This document shows positions 20,585 through 38,324 of a stretch of DNA of 38,324 nt, piece by piece. Position numbers and translations under genes: made by a program. Every line of letters begins with the position of its first letter. Positions within the stretch are counted from its first letter, which is position 1. Under the pieces are notes generated by a model, which was not told where the DNA came from, did not search any database, and was given only the letters and a program-made list of their open reading frames with translations. This DNA is from a virus: IMG/VR virus record IMGVR_UViG_3300042538_000004, positions 1 to 38,324 of that record. The stretch is one strand, 5' to 3'.

Positions 20585-22399
20585 ATGACGGCGCCGCACA
20601 CTCACATGAGCGCGGCCGAACTCGCGTCGCTTCAGCTTCCTGGCCTCCCCTCAACCGAGAGCGGCATCATCCGCCGAGCCAAGGGCGATGGCTGGCCGTT
20701 CGTCGACCGGATCGGCCGAGGCGGCGGCCGGCTATACGCCGTCGCCGACCTGCCGGCCGAGGCGCGCGCCGCCGTTCAAGCGCGCGCCACTGCCCGAGTT
20801 CCCGCTAACCTCCGTCCGGTCGGTCGCCCCAAGGGCAGCGACTATTTCAGCCGCAACATAGAGGTCGCCGATGCGGTCGAGGCAATCCTAGCCGATCGGC
20901 AGCTGTCCGCCGCCCGCATACTTGAGCTGCTGGCTCGGCGCTTCCCGCCGGCAACGCTGCCGCCCCGTCGCACCCTCGCCCGCTTCATCCAGAAGCTCGA
21001 GAGCGACAAGCCGGCCCTGCTCGCCGCCACTCGCAATCCCGATCTCTATAAGGGCCAGTATAAGCTGGCGCTCGGCCGCGCCGACGGCGGCGTCACCCAC
21101 GCCCACCAGGTCTGGGAGATCGACACGACCAAGGCGGACGTCCTCACCAAGGGCGGCCGCAAGATGATCCTCGGGCTGATCGACCGCTGGTCGCGCCGCG
21201 CCCGCTTCATGGTGGCGCCATCAGAAAGCGGCCAGGCCGTTCGCCGCCTGCTGATCGAGGCGATCCGCGAGTGGGGCGTCGTCCCCGAGACGGTGAAGAC
21301 CGACAACGGCTCCGGCTACATCAACGCTTCGATCGTCTCCGCCCTCGATACGCTCGGCATCGTCCACGAGCGCTGCCTTCCCGGCACCCCCGAGGACAAG
21401 CCATATGTCGAGCGGCTGTTTGGCACCTTCACCCGCGAGCGGGCCGAGCTGCTCGGCGGCTATTCCGGCCACAACGTCGCCCAGGCGCAGGCGCTCCGCT
21501 CCAAGGCGAAGAAGGAGACCGGCCGCGCAATCGTGCTGCCCGAAATGGAGCCGGAGGAGCTGCAGGCAGTCCTGAATGCCTGGGTCGACGGCGTCTACCA
21601 TCAGCGCGTCCACAGCGGCATCAACACGACGCCGATGCGGCGGTGGCTCTCGTCGCCGGTCCCGGCCCGCCGAGCACCCAGCGAGGACACGCTCAAGATC
21701 GCGCTCTCCCGCTTCGAGCGTGTCGCCACCGTCGGCAAGCGCGGTGTCGTCTGGAAGGGCGGCCGCTATTGGGCAGCCGCCCTGGTCCCATTCGTCGGCC
21801 GCGCCGTTCAGGTTCGCCGCGACGAAGAGGATCTCGGCGCCCTCTTCATCTTCGACGAAGACGGCCACTTCATCGACACGGCAGTCAATGCGGAGCGCGC
21901 CGGTCTGTCCGAGCAGCAATTCGCCCAAGCAGCCGCCCGCCAGCAGGCCGAGTGGCTGTCCGGCGCGAAGGCCGAGCTCCGCGAGAAGAAGCGCCGCTTC
22001 CGCTTCGAGGAAGCCCGCGACCAGCTGCTCCGCGACGACGCCGAGCGTGCCGGCAAGCTTACCTACTTCCCGACGCCGACGGTCGAGCGGTCGACGCCGC
22101 AGCTCGACAGCATCGCAGTTCGGCCGGAACCTCCGATGCCGAGCCAAGCGCGGATCGAAGAGGCGGTCCGCAAGATGGAGCCGCGCCGGGCGGCGCCGAC
22201 GCTCTCGATCGCCGAGAAGGTCGCCGCTGCGGATCGCATCATCGGCGCTGCGGAGCGCGGCGTCGAGGTCGACCCTGACGAGCTGAAGCGCGCCCGCCTG
22301 TTCGCCACCACGACGGCCTACCGCGCCGAAAAGACGATCATCGCCCACTTCGGTGGCGCTCAGACACCCGCCGCAAACGACAGGAGGCACAGCGCGTGA
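20585..22399 (+). CDS. A: transposase, MuA-like DDE recombinase
   Basis: A 604-aa protein. The N-terminal part (SAAELASLQLPGLPSTESGI and GWPFVDRIGRGGGRLYAVAD) matches the Mu transposase DNA-binding winged helix (PF02316 type). The catalytic core has Asp180 in EIDTTKAD, Asp240 in VKTDNGSGY and Glu276 in PYVERLFGTF, with 35 residues between the second Asp and the Glu, the classic DD35E spacing. A C-terminal helical region (REKKRRFRFEEARDQLLRDD) and a final Ala/Arg-rich tail probably contact the ATPase. It cuts and joins the phage ends for replicative transposition. It is followed by its ATPase partner with a GTGA overlap. Confidence 0.97.
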   Translation: MTAPHTHMSAAELASLQLPGLPSTESGIIRRAKGDGWPFVDRIGRGGGRLYAVADLPAEARAAVQARATARVPANLRPVGRPKGSDYFSRNIEVADAVEAILADRQLSAARILELLARRFPPATLPPRRTLARFIQKLESDKPALLAATRNPDLYKGQYKLALGRADGGVTHAHQVWEIDTTKADVLTKGGRKMILGLIDRWSRRARFMVAPSESGQAVRRLLIEAIREWGVVPETVKTDNGSGYINASIVSALDTLGIVHERCLPGTPEDKPYVERLFGTFTRERAELLGGYSGHNVAQAQALRSKAKKETGRAIVLPEMEPEELQAVLNAWVDGVYHQRVHSGINTTPMRRWLSSPVPARRAPSEDTLKIALSRFERVATVGKRGVVWKGGRYWAAALVPFVGRAVQVRRDEEDLGALFIFDEDGHFIDTAVNAERAGLSEQQFAQAAARQQAEWLSGAKAELREKKRRFRFEEARDQLLRDDAERAGKLTYFPTPTVERSTPQLDSIAVRPEPPMPSQARIEEAVRKMEPRRAAPTLSIAEKVAAADRIIGAAERGVEVDPDELKRARLFATTTAYRAEKTIIAHFGGAQTPAANDRRHSA

Positions 22400-32387: not shown

Positions 32388-33992
32388 ATGGCCCAGCGCC
32401 CCAAGCCCTACAGCTCCGCCGTGCGCCGCAGCCCCGGCCGCACCTCGATGCCGGCCGAGCTCAACCAGGTCATCGCGACGACGCACGACGGCCGCGACAT
32501 CACCAAGCCCTATGTCGGCGAGCTCCACGAGTTCAACGATCGCCGGCTCCTCGGCGCCGTCGACTGGGGCGAATATGACCGCATCCTGCTCGACGACCAG
32601 GTGAAGTCCTGCCTCACCCAGCGCATCGGCGCCGTCGTCAGCCGCGAATGGGACGTGCTGCCCGGCGATGCGGAGGATCCGCGTTCGGTTGCTGCCGGCG
32701 ACGCTCTCAAGGCGAACCTCGAGGATATCGGGTGGGACCGCGTCACCGAGAAGATGCTCTACACGCCCTTCTATGGGTTCGGCGTCGCCGAGCTGATGTG
32801 GGGCCTGCGTCCCGACGGCCTCATCGGCTTCGTGCCGGCCGGGCGGACGCGGGCGATCCACGTCCGGCACGCTCGGCGCTTTCGCCAGGACAAGGACGGA
32901 CGGCTGCGGCTGATCACCACCACGAACATGACCGGCGAGATCTTGCCCGAGCGCAAGTTCTGGGAGGTGACGGTCGGCGCCACCGACGACGACCAGCCCT
33001 ACGGCCGCGGCCTGGCCGAGTGGCTCTACTGGCCGTGCCTGTTCAAGCGCAACGGCATCCGCTTCTGGAACACGTTCCTGGACAAGTTCAGCGTGCCGAC
33101 CGCCAAGGGCACCTATCGGCCTGGCACGCCCGAGCAGGACATCCAGCGCCTCCTTTCGGCGCTCTCCTCGATCGCCAACGACACCGGCTTCGTCATCCCA
33201 GAAGGTATGGCCGTGGAGCTGCTCCACGTCGCCACGACCGGCATCGACTTCGAGAAGCTCCCCGCCTTCATGGACGCGGCGATCGCCAAGATCATCCTCG
33301 GCCAGACCATGACCAACACCGCCGGCCCGACCGGCCTCGGCTCCGGCCTCGCCGACGTCCAGGCCGGCGTGAAGCTCGAGGTCATCACCTCCGACGCGGA
33401 CCTCCTCACTGACAGCTTCAGCTCCGGCCCGGCGCGCTGGTGGACCGACCTCAACTTCGGCGCCGACGTCGCCGCGCCGCGAGTCGTCCGCCTGGTCGAG
33501 GAGGAAGAGGACACCAAGACGATCGCCGAGGCCGACAAGGCGATCATGAGCCTCGGCTACGTCCGCACCGACGAGAGCTTCCGCGACACCTATGGCGACG
33601 GGTTCGAGCGCAAGCCGGTGGAAAAAGCGCCCTCCTCCGGCAGTGCCGACGAGGAGGGCGATGCGGCCGGAGAGGTGCGCCGCCAAAACGAGGGTAACAT
33701 CATCCCGCTTCGGCGCGAAGCTAGCTTCGCGGAGGCGCCGATCGGCGGCGACATCGTCGACGAGGCGGTCGCTCAGATCATGGCCGACGAAGGCTGGCGC
33801 ACCGGCGTTTTGGAGCCCTTCGCCGGGTCGCTGCTTGCCGAGCTCGCGCGCGCCGGCAGCGAGGAAGAGGTCCAGGCGATCCTCGCCCGCGCCGCCGAGC
33901 TGGATGACGAAGGCACGCTCGTCACCAGCCTCGAGCGCGCCGGCTTCGCCGTGCGCTTGGCCGCCACCGCCGGGCAGGATGGCGCCGAATGA
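32388..33992 (+). CDS. portal protein, DUF935 (Mu gp29)
   Basis: A 534-aa protein one base after the terminase stop. VKSCLTQRIGAVVSREWDVL, FYGFGVAELMWGLRPDGLIG and VPTAKGTYRPGTPEQDIQRL match the DUF935 portal family (PF06074). The C-terminal 110 residues are acidic and helical (EEVQAILARAAELDDEGTLV). The dodecameric ring is the DNA gate of the head and the starting point of assembly. Its stop overlaps the methyltransferase start. Confidence 0.92.
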   Translation: MAQRPKPYSSAVRRSPGRTSMPAELNQVIATTHDGRDITKPYVGELHEFNDRRLLGAVDWGEYDRILLDDQVKSCLTQRIGAVVSREWDVLPGDAEDPRSVAAGDALKANLEDIGWDRVTEKMLYTPFYGFGVAELMWGLRPDGLIGFVPAGRTRAIHVRHARRFRQDKDGRLRLITTTNMTGEILPERKFWEVTVGATDDDQPYGRGLAEWLYWPCLFKRNGIRFWNTFLDKFSVPTAKGTYRPGTPEQDIQRLLSALSSIANDTGFVIPEGMAVELLHVATTGIDFEKLPAFMDAAIAKIILGQTMTNTAGPTGLGSGLADVQAGVKLEVITSDADLLTDSFSSGPARWWTDLNFGADVAAPRVVRLVEEEEDTKTIAEADKAIMSLGYVRTDESFRDTYGDGFERKPVEKAPSSGSADEEGDAAGEVRRQNEGNIIPLRREASFAEAPIGGDIVDEAVAQIMADEGWRTGVLEPFAGSLLAELARAGSEEEVQAILARAAELDDEGTLVTSLERAGFAVRLAATAGQDGAE

Positions 33993-34558
33993 CCTGGCCG
34001 TTCGGTCACCTGATTCCGCTCCGCTACGGGGCGATCATCGCGGATCCGCCGTGGCGCTTCGAGAACTACTCGGCGGCGGGCGAGGCTAAGAACCCGGTCG
34101 CCCACTATTCCTGCATGAGGACGGCCGACATCGCGGCTCTGCCGGTGAGCCAGCTCGCCGCACCCGATTGCGCCCTGTTCATGTGGGCGACGGCGCCGAT
34201 GCTGCCGGACGCGATCGAGCTGATGTGCCGCTGGGGCTTCACCTTCAAGAGCGCCGGTGCCTGGGCGAAGCAGTCTTCGACCGGAGAGAAGTGGGCATTC
34301 GGCACCGGCTACTGCTTCCGCTCGGCAGCCGAATTCTACCTGCTCGGCACGATCGGCAAGCCGCAGGTCCGATCACATTCGGTTCGCAACCTGATCGCCG
34401 CCCCAGTCCGTGAGCACAGCCGCAAGCCTGACGATCTGCATCGCGACGTCGAGGCGCTCTACGCCGGTCCCTATTGCGAGCTATTCGGCCGCGAGAGCCG
34501 GCCTGGCTGGGAAGTCTGGGGCAACGACGTGACTCGCTTTGACCAGGTGGCAGCATGA
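33989..34558 (+). CDS. MT-A70-type DNA N6-adenine methyltransferase
   Basis: A 189-aa protein with DPPW at residues 19-22 (ADPPWRFENY), the catalytic motif of MT-A70 enzymes. It also has CALFMWATAPMLPDAIELMC and the ending HRDVEALYAGPYCELFGRES. It should add a methyl group to adenine in DNA using S-adenosylmethionine. It is inserted between the portal and MuF genes, which are adjacent in Mu (gp29/gp30). A protective role against host restriction is likely, comparable in purpose to Mu Mom. Confidence 0.85.
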   Translation: MTWPFGHLIPLRYGAIIADPPWRFENYSAAGEAKNPVAHYSCMRTADIAALPVSQLAAPDCALFMWATAPMLPDAIELMCRWGFTFKSAGAWAKQSSTGEKWAFGTGYCFRSAAEFYLLGTIGKPQVRSHSVRNLIAAPVREHSRKPDDLHRDVEALYAGPYCELFGRESRPGWEVWGNDVTRFDQVAA

Positions 34559-35450: not shown

Positions 35451-36657
35451 AGTTCCGATCCGCACCGTCATCACCCTCCCGCCGGAGGACACCGTCCGCG
35501 CCTTCGACGCGCGCGAGGAGCTGCGTACCACCGTCAAGTGGAGCGAGATGCTCCATGACGAGCACAGCCGCGCCTTCACCGTCGCCAAGGTCGCCAAGCT
35601 CGATTTGCTCGAGGACATCCGCACCAGCCTCGCCGACGTCGTCCACAATGGCGGCACCTTCGAGCAGTGGCAGGCGAACCTCATCCCGACACTCGAGAAG
35701 GCCGGCTGGTGGGGCCGCGTCGAGGACCGCGAGCTCACCGGCACCAGCCAGCCAATCGTCGTCGGCGCTCGCCGCCTGAGGACTATCTACGACACCAATC
35801 TCCGCATGAGCCGCGCCGCTGGCCAGTGGGCGCGCATCCAGGAGAGCAAGGCCCGCTCGCCCTATCTTCGCTACTCGGCCGTCATGGACACCCGCACGCG
35901 GCCGCTCCACCGCCAATGGCATGGCACGATCCTGCGGGTCGATGATCCTTGGTGGGACGATCACTACCCGCCGTGCGGCTGGAATTGTCGCTGCACCGTC
36001 CAGCAGCTTTCCGATCGCGACCTCCGCAGCTTCGGCTGGGAGGTGTCGAAGGCGCCGCCGCCCTCCGGGCCCGGCAGGCCTTTCTGGCCGGCCGGCGCCG
36101 ACAAGCCTGTCCTCGTGCCCGCCGGCATCGATCCGGGCTTTGCCTACAATCCTGGCAAGGCGAGCATGGCGCCGATCGCCGAGAAGGCGATCCGCAGCCT
36201 CGAGCGCGCCGCGGGCCAGGACGTCAGCGCCGCCCGCGCGGTGCTGCGCGACCTGGTCGATTCGCCGGCCTTCCCCCACTTCCTCGCCCAGCCCGAGGGC
36301 GCCTTCCCGGTGGCAATCCTCTCGGCCGACGACCAGGCGCGCCTTGCGGCGCCGGCCCGCGTCGTCGTCCTGCCGGTCGGCGTCTACAGAAAGCAGCTCG
36401 CGCATCACCCGGAGATCGGCGTTGCCGAATATCGGGGGCTGCCTGACCTCGTCCACGACGCGCTCGTAGTCATTGCGCTGGGCGAGGAGCGGCTGATCTA
36501 CTTCCGCGATCGTGCTGGGCGCATGCTGAAGGCGATCGTCCGCGTAGACTCGGGCGAGCCGAACCCCGCGGTGGTCACCTACCACGTTGTCCAGGAGCGC
36601 GAGATCCGCCGCGAGCTGCGCCGCGGCACCTTGCTGCTCGACCGGAGGGGCGAATGA
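35443..36657 (+). CDS. F: MuF head-morphogenesis protein with a probable nuclease-type toxin domain
   Basis: A 404-aa protein from the GTG at 35443 (MAEVPIRTVITLPP), which overlaps the previous stop. Residues about 60-190 are the MuF core: SPYLRYSAVMDTRTRPLHRQ, His156 and the CGWNCRC cluster (178-184). Residues about 281-393 form a separate domain with HPEIGVAEYRGLPDLVHDAL, EERLIYFRDRAGRMLKAIVR and VTYHVVQEREIRRELRR. This resembles PBECR-type (barnase-EndoU-ColicinE5/D-RelE-like) nucleases fused to MuF proteins. MuF is a minor capsid protein likely to enter the cell with DNA, so a fused toxin would be delivered. The domain call is tentative. Confidence 0.75.
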   Translation: MAEVPIRTVITLPPEDTVRAFDAREELRTTVKWSEMLHDEHSRAFTVAKVAKLDLLEDIRTSLADVVHNGGTFEQWQANLIPTLEKAGWWGRVEDRELTGTSQPIVVGARRLRTIYDTNLRMSRAAGQWARIQESKARSPYLRYSAVMDTRTRPLHRQWHGTILRVDDPWWDDHYPPCGWNCRCTVQQLSDRDLRSFGWEVSKAPPPSGPGRPFWPAGADKPVLVPAGIDPGFAYNPGKASMAPIAEKAIRSLERAAGQDVSAARAVLRDLVDSPAFPHFLAQPEGAFPVAILSADDQARLAAPARVVVLPVGVYRKQLAHHPEIGVAEYRGLPDLVHDALVVIALGEERLIYFRDRAGRMLKAIVRVDSGEPNPAVVTYHVVQEREIRRELRRGTLLLDRRGE

Positions 36658-36676
36658 GGAGAGGGTGCGACGCACG

Positions 36677-36781
36677 GTGGGGACTGCCGGTCCCCCACGA
36701 AGCCGTCAAAGGCCAGAAGCCTCGAGCTACGGTGGGCAGCTTTACCGCGTCGCGTGCGCCGCTCCGCCGATATAGCGGAGC
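36677..36781 (+). promoter_or_regulatory. hairpins after the MuF gene
   Basis: GTGGGGAC and GTCCCCCAC (36677-36698) pair with one extra C. GCTCCGC and GCGGAGC (36761-36781) pair perfectly around CGATATA. Both lie in the gap after MuF and before the convergent small gene. Neither has a T-run, so their role as terminators is uncertain. Confidence 0.4.
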
Positions 36782-36806
36782 CGGGTTCGAGGTTCAACGA
36801 AGGCGG

Positions 36807-37004
36807 TCAGTCCTCCACATCGAGCTTCTCCCACACGTCGTTGATGCCCGCATCGACGACAATGTCCTCGGTTCGGCCGATAACTCGAATAATCGTGCCT
36901 CCCTCTTGGCGCTCGATGATCGCTCCTACCGTCCGAGGGTTAACGCCGACTGCGCCACCACCTCCAAACTTAAGCTTGAAGTGCACGAGCTTCAGACGTG
37001 CCAT
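36807..37004 (-). CDS. FlbD-like small protein on the opposite strand
   Basis: A 65-aa protein with a strong ribosome site: AGGAGG eight bases before the ATG at 37004. The order VHFKLKFGGGGAVGVNPRTV, then GAIIERQEGGTIIRVIGRTE with IVVDAGINDVWEKLDV, looks like the small beta-alpha proteins of the FlbD type. Codon third positions are less G/C-biased than in the neighbours and it faces against the operon, so it is probably a recently acquired cargo gene with its own promoter. Confidence 0.7.
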   Translation of the reverse strand: MARLKLVHFKLKFGGGGAVGVNPRTVGAIIERQEGGTIIRVIGRTEDIVVDAGINDVWEKLDVED

Positions 37005-37143
37005 ACCTACTTCCTCCTTTCCATCGCCGCGAGGCGGTGGCCGGGGCGCGCCAACGCCCCTAGCCGGCGGTCACTACCCGCCATGATCCGGCCGATCTAT
37101 GCCGGAATCACCCCGCCACTCGCGCACGAGCGGGCGGAACGTA

Positions 37144-37419
37144 GTGAGAACAGACGTGGAGTCGAGTCCAACCGGAGGAGCTGCCAGAGCTCACGGCGGG
37201 CCGGCGCTGGCGAAGACGAGCTACCGCTGCGCGAGCTGCGGCGCACTTCTCTTCAAAGCGGCGCCGGCTGCTATTTCAGGAGTAATCGAGATCAAGTGCC
37301 GCCGGTGCGGCACCTTCAATTCCATGAGGCCATCGAGCCCTCCCACGACCGCCGATCGAGCGGCTGCGAGGAACCTGCCTTGTGGACATACCTGCCCCCT
37401 TCAGCCCGGAGCCAAGTGA
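37144..37419 (+). CDS. com: Com-like zinc-finger translational regulator
   Basis: An open frame runs from the ATG at 37099 (106 aa); the GTG at 37144 gives 91 aa and a ribosome-like GGA five bases upstream. The start is uncertain because Mu Com begins just before its first Cys. The core YRCASCGALLFKAAPAAISG and IEIKCRRCGTFNSMRP matches the Com family (PF10122): two CxxC pairs bind zinc. Mu Com binds mom mRNA and opens its hidden start. Here the stop lies 38 bases inside the downstream DNA methyltransferase gene, the same overlap logic. The C-terminal end is rich in Pro and Arg and has no known role. Confidence 0.8.
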   Translation: MRTDVESSPTGGAARAHGGPALAKTSYRCASCGALLFKAAPAAISGVIEIKCRRCGTFNSMRPSSPPTTADRAAARNLPCGHTCPLQPGAK

Positions 37420-38314
37420 CTTCCGGGGAATCTCCCTCTGCGCCGGATACGGAGGTCTCGACCTCGGTCTCCACATCGCCGAGCCCAGCTACCGAACTGT
37501 GGCTTTCGTCGAGCGGGAAAGCCATGCGGCGGCCGCTCTCGTGGCCCGGATGGAAGACAAGGCCTTGGCTGAGGCGCTTGTCTGGGACGACCTTAGAGCC
37601 TTCGACGGCCGCCCTTGGTGCGGCCGCGTTCATCTCGTCTCTGCCGGCTATCCATGCCAGCCCTTCAGCCAGGCCGGCAAACGGAGAGGGGCATCGGATC
37701 CCCGCCACCTCTGGCCGGACGTTGCGCGGATCGTCGGAGAGGTCGAGCCTGAGTGGGTCTTCTGCGAAAATGTCGAGGGGCACATGTCCCTGGGCTTTGC
37801 CGAAGTCGCCGCGAGCCTTCGAGGGCTGGGCTACACGACAAAGGCGGGCCTGTTCACGGCGAGAGAGGCGGGCGGTAGCCACCGGCGTCGCCGCCTCTTC
37901 CTCCTGGCCCACGCCGACCGCTTCGGACGCAGGCTACTTCCCGGATCTGATTCTGCAGGAGGGATCGATCAGGTCGGTGTCTCCGATCGACATCTCGGAG
38001 GGCAGCGGCGGCCAATATCCCCTTCGCGAAGCGGCCAGGACTTGGACGGTGCTATGGCTCATCCTGCGGGCTCTCGGATGGCGGGCGGCGACGGCGGGGC
38101 ACCCCTCTTCGCTCCCGGTCCGGGTGAGCTTCAAGCATGGGAAGAGCTCCTTCATCGGCACCCTGACGCCCAACCCGCAATTCTACGAGCTGATCATGGG
38201 ATGGCCGATCGGATGGACCGCACCAGAGGAGCAGGTAACGGCGTTTTCAGCATGGTTGCAGCGGTCGCGTGGGCAGTTCTCAAATCTGCTTTCCACGTTC
38301 ATCGCAGAGCCTGA
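37382..38314 (+). CDS. C5-cytosine DNA methyltransferase (Dcm type), possibly frameshifted
   Basis: A 310-aa frame from the GTG at 37382, with GAGGA upstream. Motif I is ISLCAGYGGLDLGL, motif IV GYPCQPFS with the catalytic Cys, motif VI ENVEGH, and motif VIII HRRRRLFLLAH. The frame also ends with a motif-X-like GAGNGVFSMVAAVAWAVL and LFAPGPGELQAWEELL before it. However, after about 37915 its codon bias falls (roughly 54% G/C at third positions by hand, against about 76% before), and the frame that carries the bias is the one ending at 38324. The enzyme modifies phage DNA against restriction. Whether its end is read in this frame needs proof. Confidence 0.75.
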   Translation: MDIPAPFSPEPSDFRGISLCAGYGGLDLGLHIAEPSYRTVAFVERESHAAAALVARMEDKALAEALVWDDLRAFDGRPWCGRVHLVSAGYPCQPFSQAGKRRGASDPRHLWPDVARIVGEVEPEWVFCENVEGHMSLGFAEVAASLRGLGYTTKAGLFTAREAGGSHRRRRLFLLAHADRFGRRLLPGSDSAGGIDQVGVSDRHLGGQRRPISPSRSGQDLDGAMAHPAGSRMAGGDGGAPLFAPGPGELQAWEELLHRHPDAQPAILRADHGMADRMDRTRGAGNGVFSMVAAVAWAVLKSAFHVHRRA

Positions 38315-38324
38315 GGAGGGTTAG
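37770..38324 (+). CDS. overlapping frame with methyltransferase-type C-terminal motifs
   Basis: This frame is open through the window end. The first candidate start inside the methyltransferase gene is the ATG at 37770 (184 aa), without a clear ribosome site. From about 37895 it reads SSSWPTPTASDAGYFPDLIL, and later TLTPNPQFYELIMGWPIGWT with VTAFSAWLQRSRG, sequences typical of the C-terminal part of many phage cytosine methyltransferases. Third positions are about 76% G/C by hand, as in the first part of the methyltransferase. It is therefore either the true end of that enzyme reached by a +1 shift, or a separate overprinted gene. Its TAG is the last triplet of the window. Confidence 0.6.
   Translation: MSRGTCPWALPKSPRAFEGWATRQRRACSRRERRAVATGVAASSSWPTPTASDAGYFPDLILQEGSIRSVSPIDISEGSGGQYPLREAARTWTVLWLILRALGWRAATAGHPSSLPVRVSFKHGKSSFIGTLTPNPQFYELIMGWPIGWTAPEEQVTAFSAWLQRSRGQFSNLLSTFIAEPEEG

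Follow-up and report, generated by a model that had tools for sequence, protein, structure and literature searches.

A phage cytosine methyltransferase gene overprinted along its whole length by a second frame that probably encodes its partner subunit

In single-chain C5 cytosine DNA methyltransferases, such as M.HhaI and the enzyme of Streptococcus phage Javan308, the catalytic core with motifs I–VIII is followed by the recognition domain, motif IX and motif X, all in one frame. M.EcoHK31I (YGGCCR) and M.AquI (CYCGRG) are two-polypeptide enzymes, and the beta gene of M.EcoHK31I lies within the alpha gene in another frame. The large subunit of M.EcoHK31I carries motifs I–VIII and X, the small polypeptide carrying motif IX only; in M.AquI the N-terminal subunit carries motifs I–VIII and a small separate polypeptide carries motifs IX–X (PMC3404938).

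The window analysed here is a whole virus record of 38,324 bases with Mu-like features, which include a transposase-like ORF (20585-22399) and, towards the right end, a Com-like gene. The same end also holds a methyltransferase gene, frame a, together with a second open frame, b. A preliminary description of this DNA had noted that both frames are open over the end of the methyltransferase gene; this was found to be so, and the overlap is wider than noted, as b spans the whole gene. From sequence comparison, structural modelling and analogy, it is likely that a and b are the two subunits of one heterodimeric C5 DNA methyltransferase of the M.EcoHK31I/M.AquI kind.

The two frames and their starts

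Frame a (37382..38314, + strand) has a GTG start and encodes a C5 cytosine DNA methyltransferase of 310 aa, the alpha-like member of the pair. Motifs I (about 37427-37474), IV (GYPCQPFS, containing PCQ, 37646-37669), VI (ENV, 37766-37774), VIII (37880-37900) and X (GNGV, 38234-38245) are all present on the + strand, and PCQPFS, ENV and GNGV are invariant in 20 relatives. The frame matches phrog_363 over nearly the full length (E 2.6e-50), and with PF00145 (E 1.4e-29) only positions 1-162 of the 324 in the profile are covered. A survey of ten bacterial genomes gave the same picture: the PF00145 match to enzymes of the frame-a type stops at about 165-180, whereas in canonical enzymes it reaches 322. 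Canonical motif IX was found in 0 of 56 frame-a proteins with a simple pattern that misses some canonical enzymes as well; the scan of canonical enzymes was too strict and is a weak control. A single-chain phage enzyme, unlike the frame-a proteins, has motif IX (KLTPRECWRLQGFPDW) in frame.

Frame b (37380..38324, + strand) is in the +1 frame and encodes a beta-like protein of 314 aa, from a TTG start to a TAG stop at 38322-38324. Its coding part, 37380-38321, overprints the whole methyltransferase gene, and the frame is open from 36654 to 38324, where the record ends. The protein begins M-W-T-Y-L-P, and in its close class the N-terminus is M-W-[ILT]-[YF]. The strings quoted in the preliminary description were recovered in their frames, GMADRMDRTRGAGNGVFSMV in a and WPTPTASD and TPNPQFYELIMGWPIGWTAP in b. 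Frame b matches phrog_1008 (E 6.7e-11), which is annotated as a DNA methyltransferase, as well as phrog_35493, phrog_27243 and phrog_26627; the annotations seen for these four families mention neither overlap with a DCM frame nor dependence on one. No match to the window's own b tail was obtained by tblastn against 50,697 phage records or by a DNA similarity search, and 82 records were found when the distant homologue P0005 was used as query.

The last base of the record is the end of the frame b stop codon (38322-38324), and two further contigs (L002 and L010) stop there too, which suggests that the end of the virus was set by trimming to a gene call in which frame b was chosen over frame a. 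A few kb upstream of the pair, the ORF at 33989-34558 resembles MT-A70-like adenine methyltransferases (IIADPPWRF motif, by eye only) and may be another DNA modification gene of this phage.

The starts of the two frames are interlocked in the hexamer TTGTGG (37380..37385, + strand), in which the TTG of b at 37380 and the GTG of a at 37382 are two bases apart, with a purine-rich GAGGA about 10 nt upstream. Two forms of this arrangement recur. In KTGTGG, the TTG or GTG of b is followed two bases on by the GTG of a, behind one purine-rich stretch; in ATGAATGNNTGG (ATGAATG), the ATG of a is followed four bases on by the ATG of b. Among 203 scored loci, duplicates included, there were 99 with KTGTGG, 61 with ATGAATGNNTGG and 6 with a close variant. 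Because the two starts overlap, translation of frame b is probably independent and not via frameshifting.

The start region is shared with a third gene, a Mu Com-like zinc-ribbon gene for a probable translational regulator (37099..37419, + strand), which matches PF10122 (E 2.3e-8) and phrog_6417 (E 9.1e-9), annotated as translational regulator. Its 3' end overlaps both methyltransferase starts, and about 40 bases (37380-37419) are coding in all three forward frames; TTGTGG is read as Cys-Gly in com, as start-Trp in b and as the start in a. In a cysteine-pattern scan of 80 unique loci, a Com-like ORF ended near the start in 47 and overlapped it in 39. In phage Mu, Com controls mom, and Mu Com acts on RNA. 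Here too a modification gene is preceded by a zinc-ribbon Com domain, and by analogy the a/b pair may be under Com-like control. When the start region was searched for conserved RNA structure, the window z-score was -0.45 and no pairs were found in 22 relatives.

Selection on both frames

The coding status of frame b was assessed from its stop codons, substitutions and codon choice. Upstream of 37904, 23 related loci have 0 stops in frame b against 44.5 ± 5.7 expected (minimum 29 in 500) from synonymous codon resampling, a procedure that ignores the relatedness of the loci, and the +2 frame of the same loci has 83 stops over the same stretch. For this genome alone the figures are 0 stops against 2.9 expected (p about 0.05), so that chance is excluded only via the comparison among loci. 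No avoidance of +1 stops was seen in 19 other genes of the window (167 observed, 155 expected) or in ten methyltransferases taken as canonical controls (137 observed, 149 expected).

Substitutions were compared by codon position in nine close relatives and in 56 non-redundant loci. Over residues 16-165 of frame a the phase is a-like, with the third position the most variable, as in an ordinary gene. From about 37904 it is b-like: the order inverts, the first position of a (the wobble position of b) becoming the most variable and the third position of a (the second of b) the least, and the segment 37905..38162 is in the phase of frame b (p1>p2>p3). The selected frame changes at 37904, right behind motif VIII. 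The earlier remark that codon bias favours the second frame was borne out by base composition, since from 37904 GC peaks at the third position of b, which is position 1 of a (0.79-0.90 up to 38191); in control genes the peak is at position 3 (0.86-0.91).

Codon choice in frame a is also frozen at particular sites. V54 of a is GTG in 55 of 55 loci, giving W55 of b, and both P265 (CCC) and G273 (GGG) are fixed in 56/56. Over residues 1-10 and 261-280 of a, synonymous difference amounts to 0.24-0.29 of that expected, compared with 0.76-0.89 over residues 101-140. As the relatives share ancestry, these codon counts are not independent events; the phase inversion is unaffected by the neglect of relatedness in the resampling. 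On these comparisons it is close to certain that frame b is coding, and both frames are under selection.

Synonymous sites at a residues 41-90 (37502-37651) are tightly constrained as well, and in the N-terminal half of b they correspond to conserved positions rich in Trp and Ser. These conserved islands are not folded by AlphaFold.

Two explanations that would make frame b an artefact were considered. Other genes of this GC-rich genome have +1 open stretches of up to 236 codons, and b might be a spurious frame that seems conserved through the conserved, GC-rich frame a. This is hardly credible and is ruled out by the phase inversion, the synonymous freezing and the stop avoidance with its clean controls; b moreover persists where the GC of a locus falls to 0.47. 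An error of sequencing or assembly that split one gene, which the preliminary description had named as a possible refutation, would account for the change of frame and for nothing else. Such an error is vanishingly improbable and was rejected, the same overlap being present in more than 100 independent contigs, complete phage genomes and bacterial loci.

A further possibility is programmed ribosomal frameshifting from a to b near 37905, which would produce one fused methyltransferase with the C-terminus of b. Frameshifting is common among phages, and the selected frame changes at 37904, exactly past motif VIII. In a programmed frameshift, however, the downstream frame is needed only past the slip site, and b is selected upstream of 37904, as seen in the missing stops and in the codons of a that are frozen over residues 41-90 and 1-10. 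In addition, motif X remains in frame a and no obvious slippery sequence was seen on inspection of the junction by eye. Such a fusion is quite unlikely because b is selected and stop-free ahead of the junction and has its own conserved start, with the MW[LIT][YF] N-terminus behind it. The preliminary description had offered three readings of the overlap, of which the overprinted gene is strongly supported and an origin by change of frame is plausible; a simple +1 shift product is unlikely, b being stop-free and selected upstream.

Division of the conserved segments between the two proteins

AlphaFold models of the two proteins differ over the shared DNA. In frame a, residues 180-250 are disordered, with confidence mostly under 45, whereas in frame b residues 180-314 form a confident domain (about 70-90) and residues 1-178 are mostly of low confidence. 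The same DNA is thus read as a flexible linker in frame a and as a folded domain in frame b. The segment of b that begins WPTPTASD (37905..38162, + strand) is a putative target-recognition region on the basis of the phase switches and this contrast; read in frame a, these bases give a linker that is not conserved (a residues about 180-250). Because of the phase and folding data, it is in b that the recognition region would be located.

The next block of b, LTPNPQFYELIMGWPIGWT (38163..38219, + strand), is motif-IX-like by register and frozen codons and overlaps DHGMADRMDR of frame a. Within it, the 20-mer ATGGGATGGCCGATCGGATG (38196-38215) does read MADRMD in frame a and MGWPIGW in frame b, as previously reported. 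The counterpart in other loci, LNPxWVEWLMGWPIGWT, lies directly ahead of the motif X DNA. In a profile–profile comparison with canonical DCM C-termini the LTPNPQFYELIMGWPIGWT block falls on motif IX (RRLTPQECARLMGF), and the match, in two separate b sets, has single-comparison P values of 0.023 and 0.075 with a probability of about 2% or less. The assignment of motif IX to b, from register and position, is therefore a weak one.

No structural match to the b model was found with Foldseek against the PDB and BFVD or with VIA-align, and the b profile gave no DCM match among PDB sequences, only chance matches to coat proteins. That b resembles none of the known DCM recognition domains in structure, and that its N-terminal half has conserved islands, might be taken to mean that b, a protein of its own, has an unrelated role, for example in anti-restriction or regulation, and overprints the methyltransferase by happenstance. 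This seems unlikely: b is +1 of a DCM in nearly all loci found, the recognition and motif IX region is absent from a, the motif-IX-like sequence stands directly ahead of motif X and, in Gordonia phage Float294, motif X itself is carried in b.

In the heterodimer that is preferred here, frame a would give the SAM-binding and catalytic large domain (motifs I–VIII and X), with disorder in the place usually taken by the recognition domain. Frame b, with its mostly disordered N-terminal half, would supply target recognition and motif IX in trans from the folded C-terminal domain, and the two proteins would form a complex with b as the recognition/motif-IX subunit. Methylation by such an enzyme would shield phage DNA from host restriction. 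The pair probably originated from a single-chain enzyme whose recognition/motif-IX segment was shifted into +1 by compensating frameshifts on either side, which fits the order of motifs along the DNA. This origin is plausible because motif IX, which in canonical enzymes lies in the main frame, is here in +1 just before motif X.

Spread of the pair and relation to known systems

Relatives were retrieved with frame a and with frame b separately. Both parts were detected in 124 fetched loci, and in all 124 frame b is exactly +1 of the methyltransferase; the set includes the window itself and repeat fetches of some contigs and so is not of all distinct loci. The start of b was resolved in 80 distinct viral loci. 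The arrangement is also found in 77 of 80 loci from bacterial genomes, and those without a standard +1 pair (L173, L188 and L204) are frameshifted or decayed fragments. The genome loci are mainly from Pseudomonas, Acinetobacter and Chromobacterium, with others from MAGs of Verrucomicrobiota, Planctomycetes, Spirochaetia and Omnitrophota and from one archaeal MAG. The coupling of the starts and the split of conserved segments between the frames are kept across loci.

Some loci depart from the common layout. In Paenibacillus phage Bloom (L043) the b start is inside a, and both proteins are annotated as cytosine methyltransferase. In Gordonia phage Float294 (L046, 1107-2340) frame a goes no further than motif VIII, and repeated LPTP modules, a motif-IX-like sequence and motif X (LGNGVVP) are found in the +1 frame; both halves are annotated as DNA methylase. 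In four further loci (L103, L105, L107 and L109) frame a stops in the linker between motif VIII and the motif X stretch and frame b is open; in the first three b is about 490-510 aa long with repeated WPTP modules. These could be cases of inactivation or a three-piece arrangement, and given these loci motif X may not always be made together with a.

The chances are somewhat better than even that these loci represent a phage- and prophage-borne class, spread over several bacterial phyla, in which catalysis and recognition are two obligate subunits encoded in two frames with interlocked starts and one ribosome-binding site. The expandable recognition modules would have to stay readable in both frames, and the start region of Mu-like phages would be read in a third frame as well, as the end of the Com-like gene. 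The two-subunit kind of enzyme is known; the breadth, the full-length overlap and the shared start appear undescribed, as no account of such an overlap in phages was found in a search mainly of openly accessible literature.

Such pairs are annotated as a single methyltransferase or a single hypothetical protein, and rarely as both. Many phage methyltransferases in databases may be entered as half an enzyme and, if so, testing cloned frame a by itself for activity would fail or mislead. As a case of full-length overprinting the pair is unusually deep and countable, with both products apparently serving one enzyme, and it offers a natural test of how two frames split selection along a gene. Interlocked starts with one ribosome-binding site would be a simple means to fix the subunit ratio.

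The start region resembles com-mom of phage Mu in having a Com-like zinc ribbon directly ahead of, and overlapping, the start of a DNA modification gene near the phage end. It differs in that Mom is an unrelated modification enzyme, whereas the target here would be an alpha/beta pair. Single-chain C5 enzymes share the catalytic core and the order of motifs, but match PF00145 to position 322 and are without +1 stop avoidance.

Among two-polypeptide enzymes, M.AquI is similar in having motifs I–VIII on the N-terminal subunit and motif IX on the C-terminal one. It carries motif X on its small subunit, however, and in the window GNGV is in frame a; Float294, with motif X on the second subunit, looks M.AquI-like. 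The motif layout is like that of M.EcoHK31I: a has motifs I–VIII and X, and motif IX, statistically weak and placed by register and position, is on the second polypeptide b. The second gene is always +1 here, and in M.EcoHK31I too the subunit genes overlap. M.EcoHK31I is part of a restriction-modification system and its TRD is predicted in the large subunit, whereas the pair in the window belongs to a Mu-like phage, has its conserved recognition segment in b, and is distinguished by a frame b that covers all of a and by starts that interlock.
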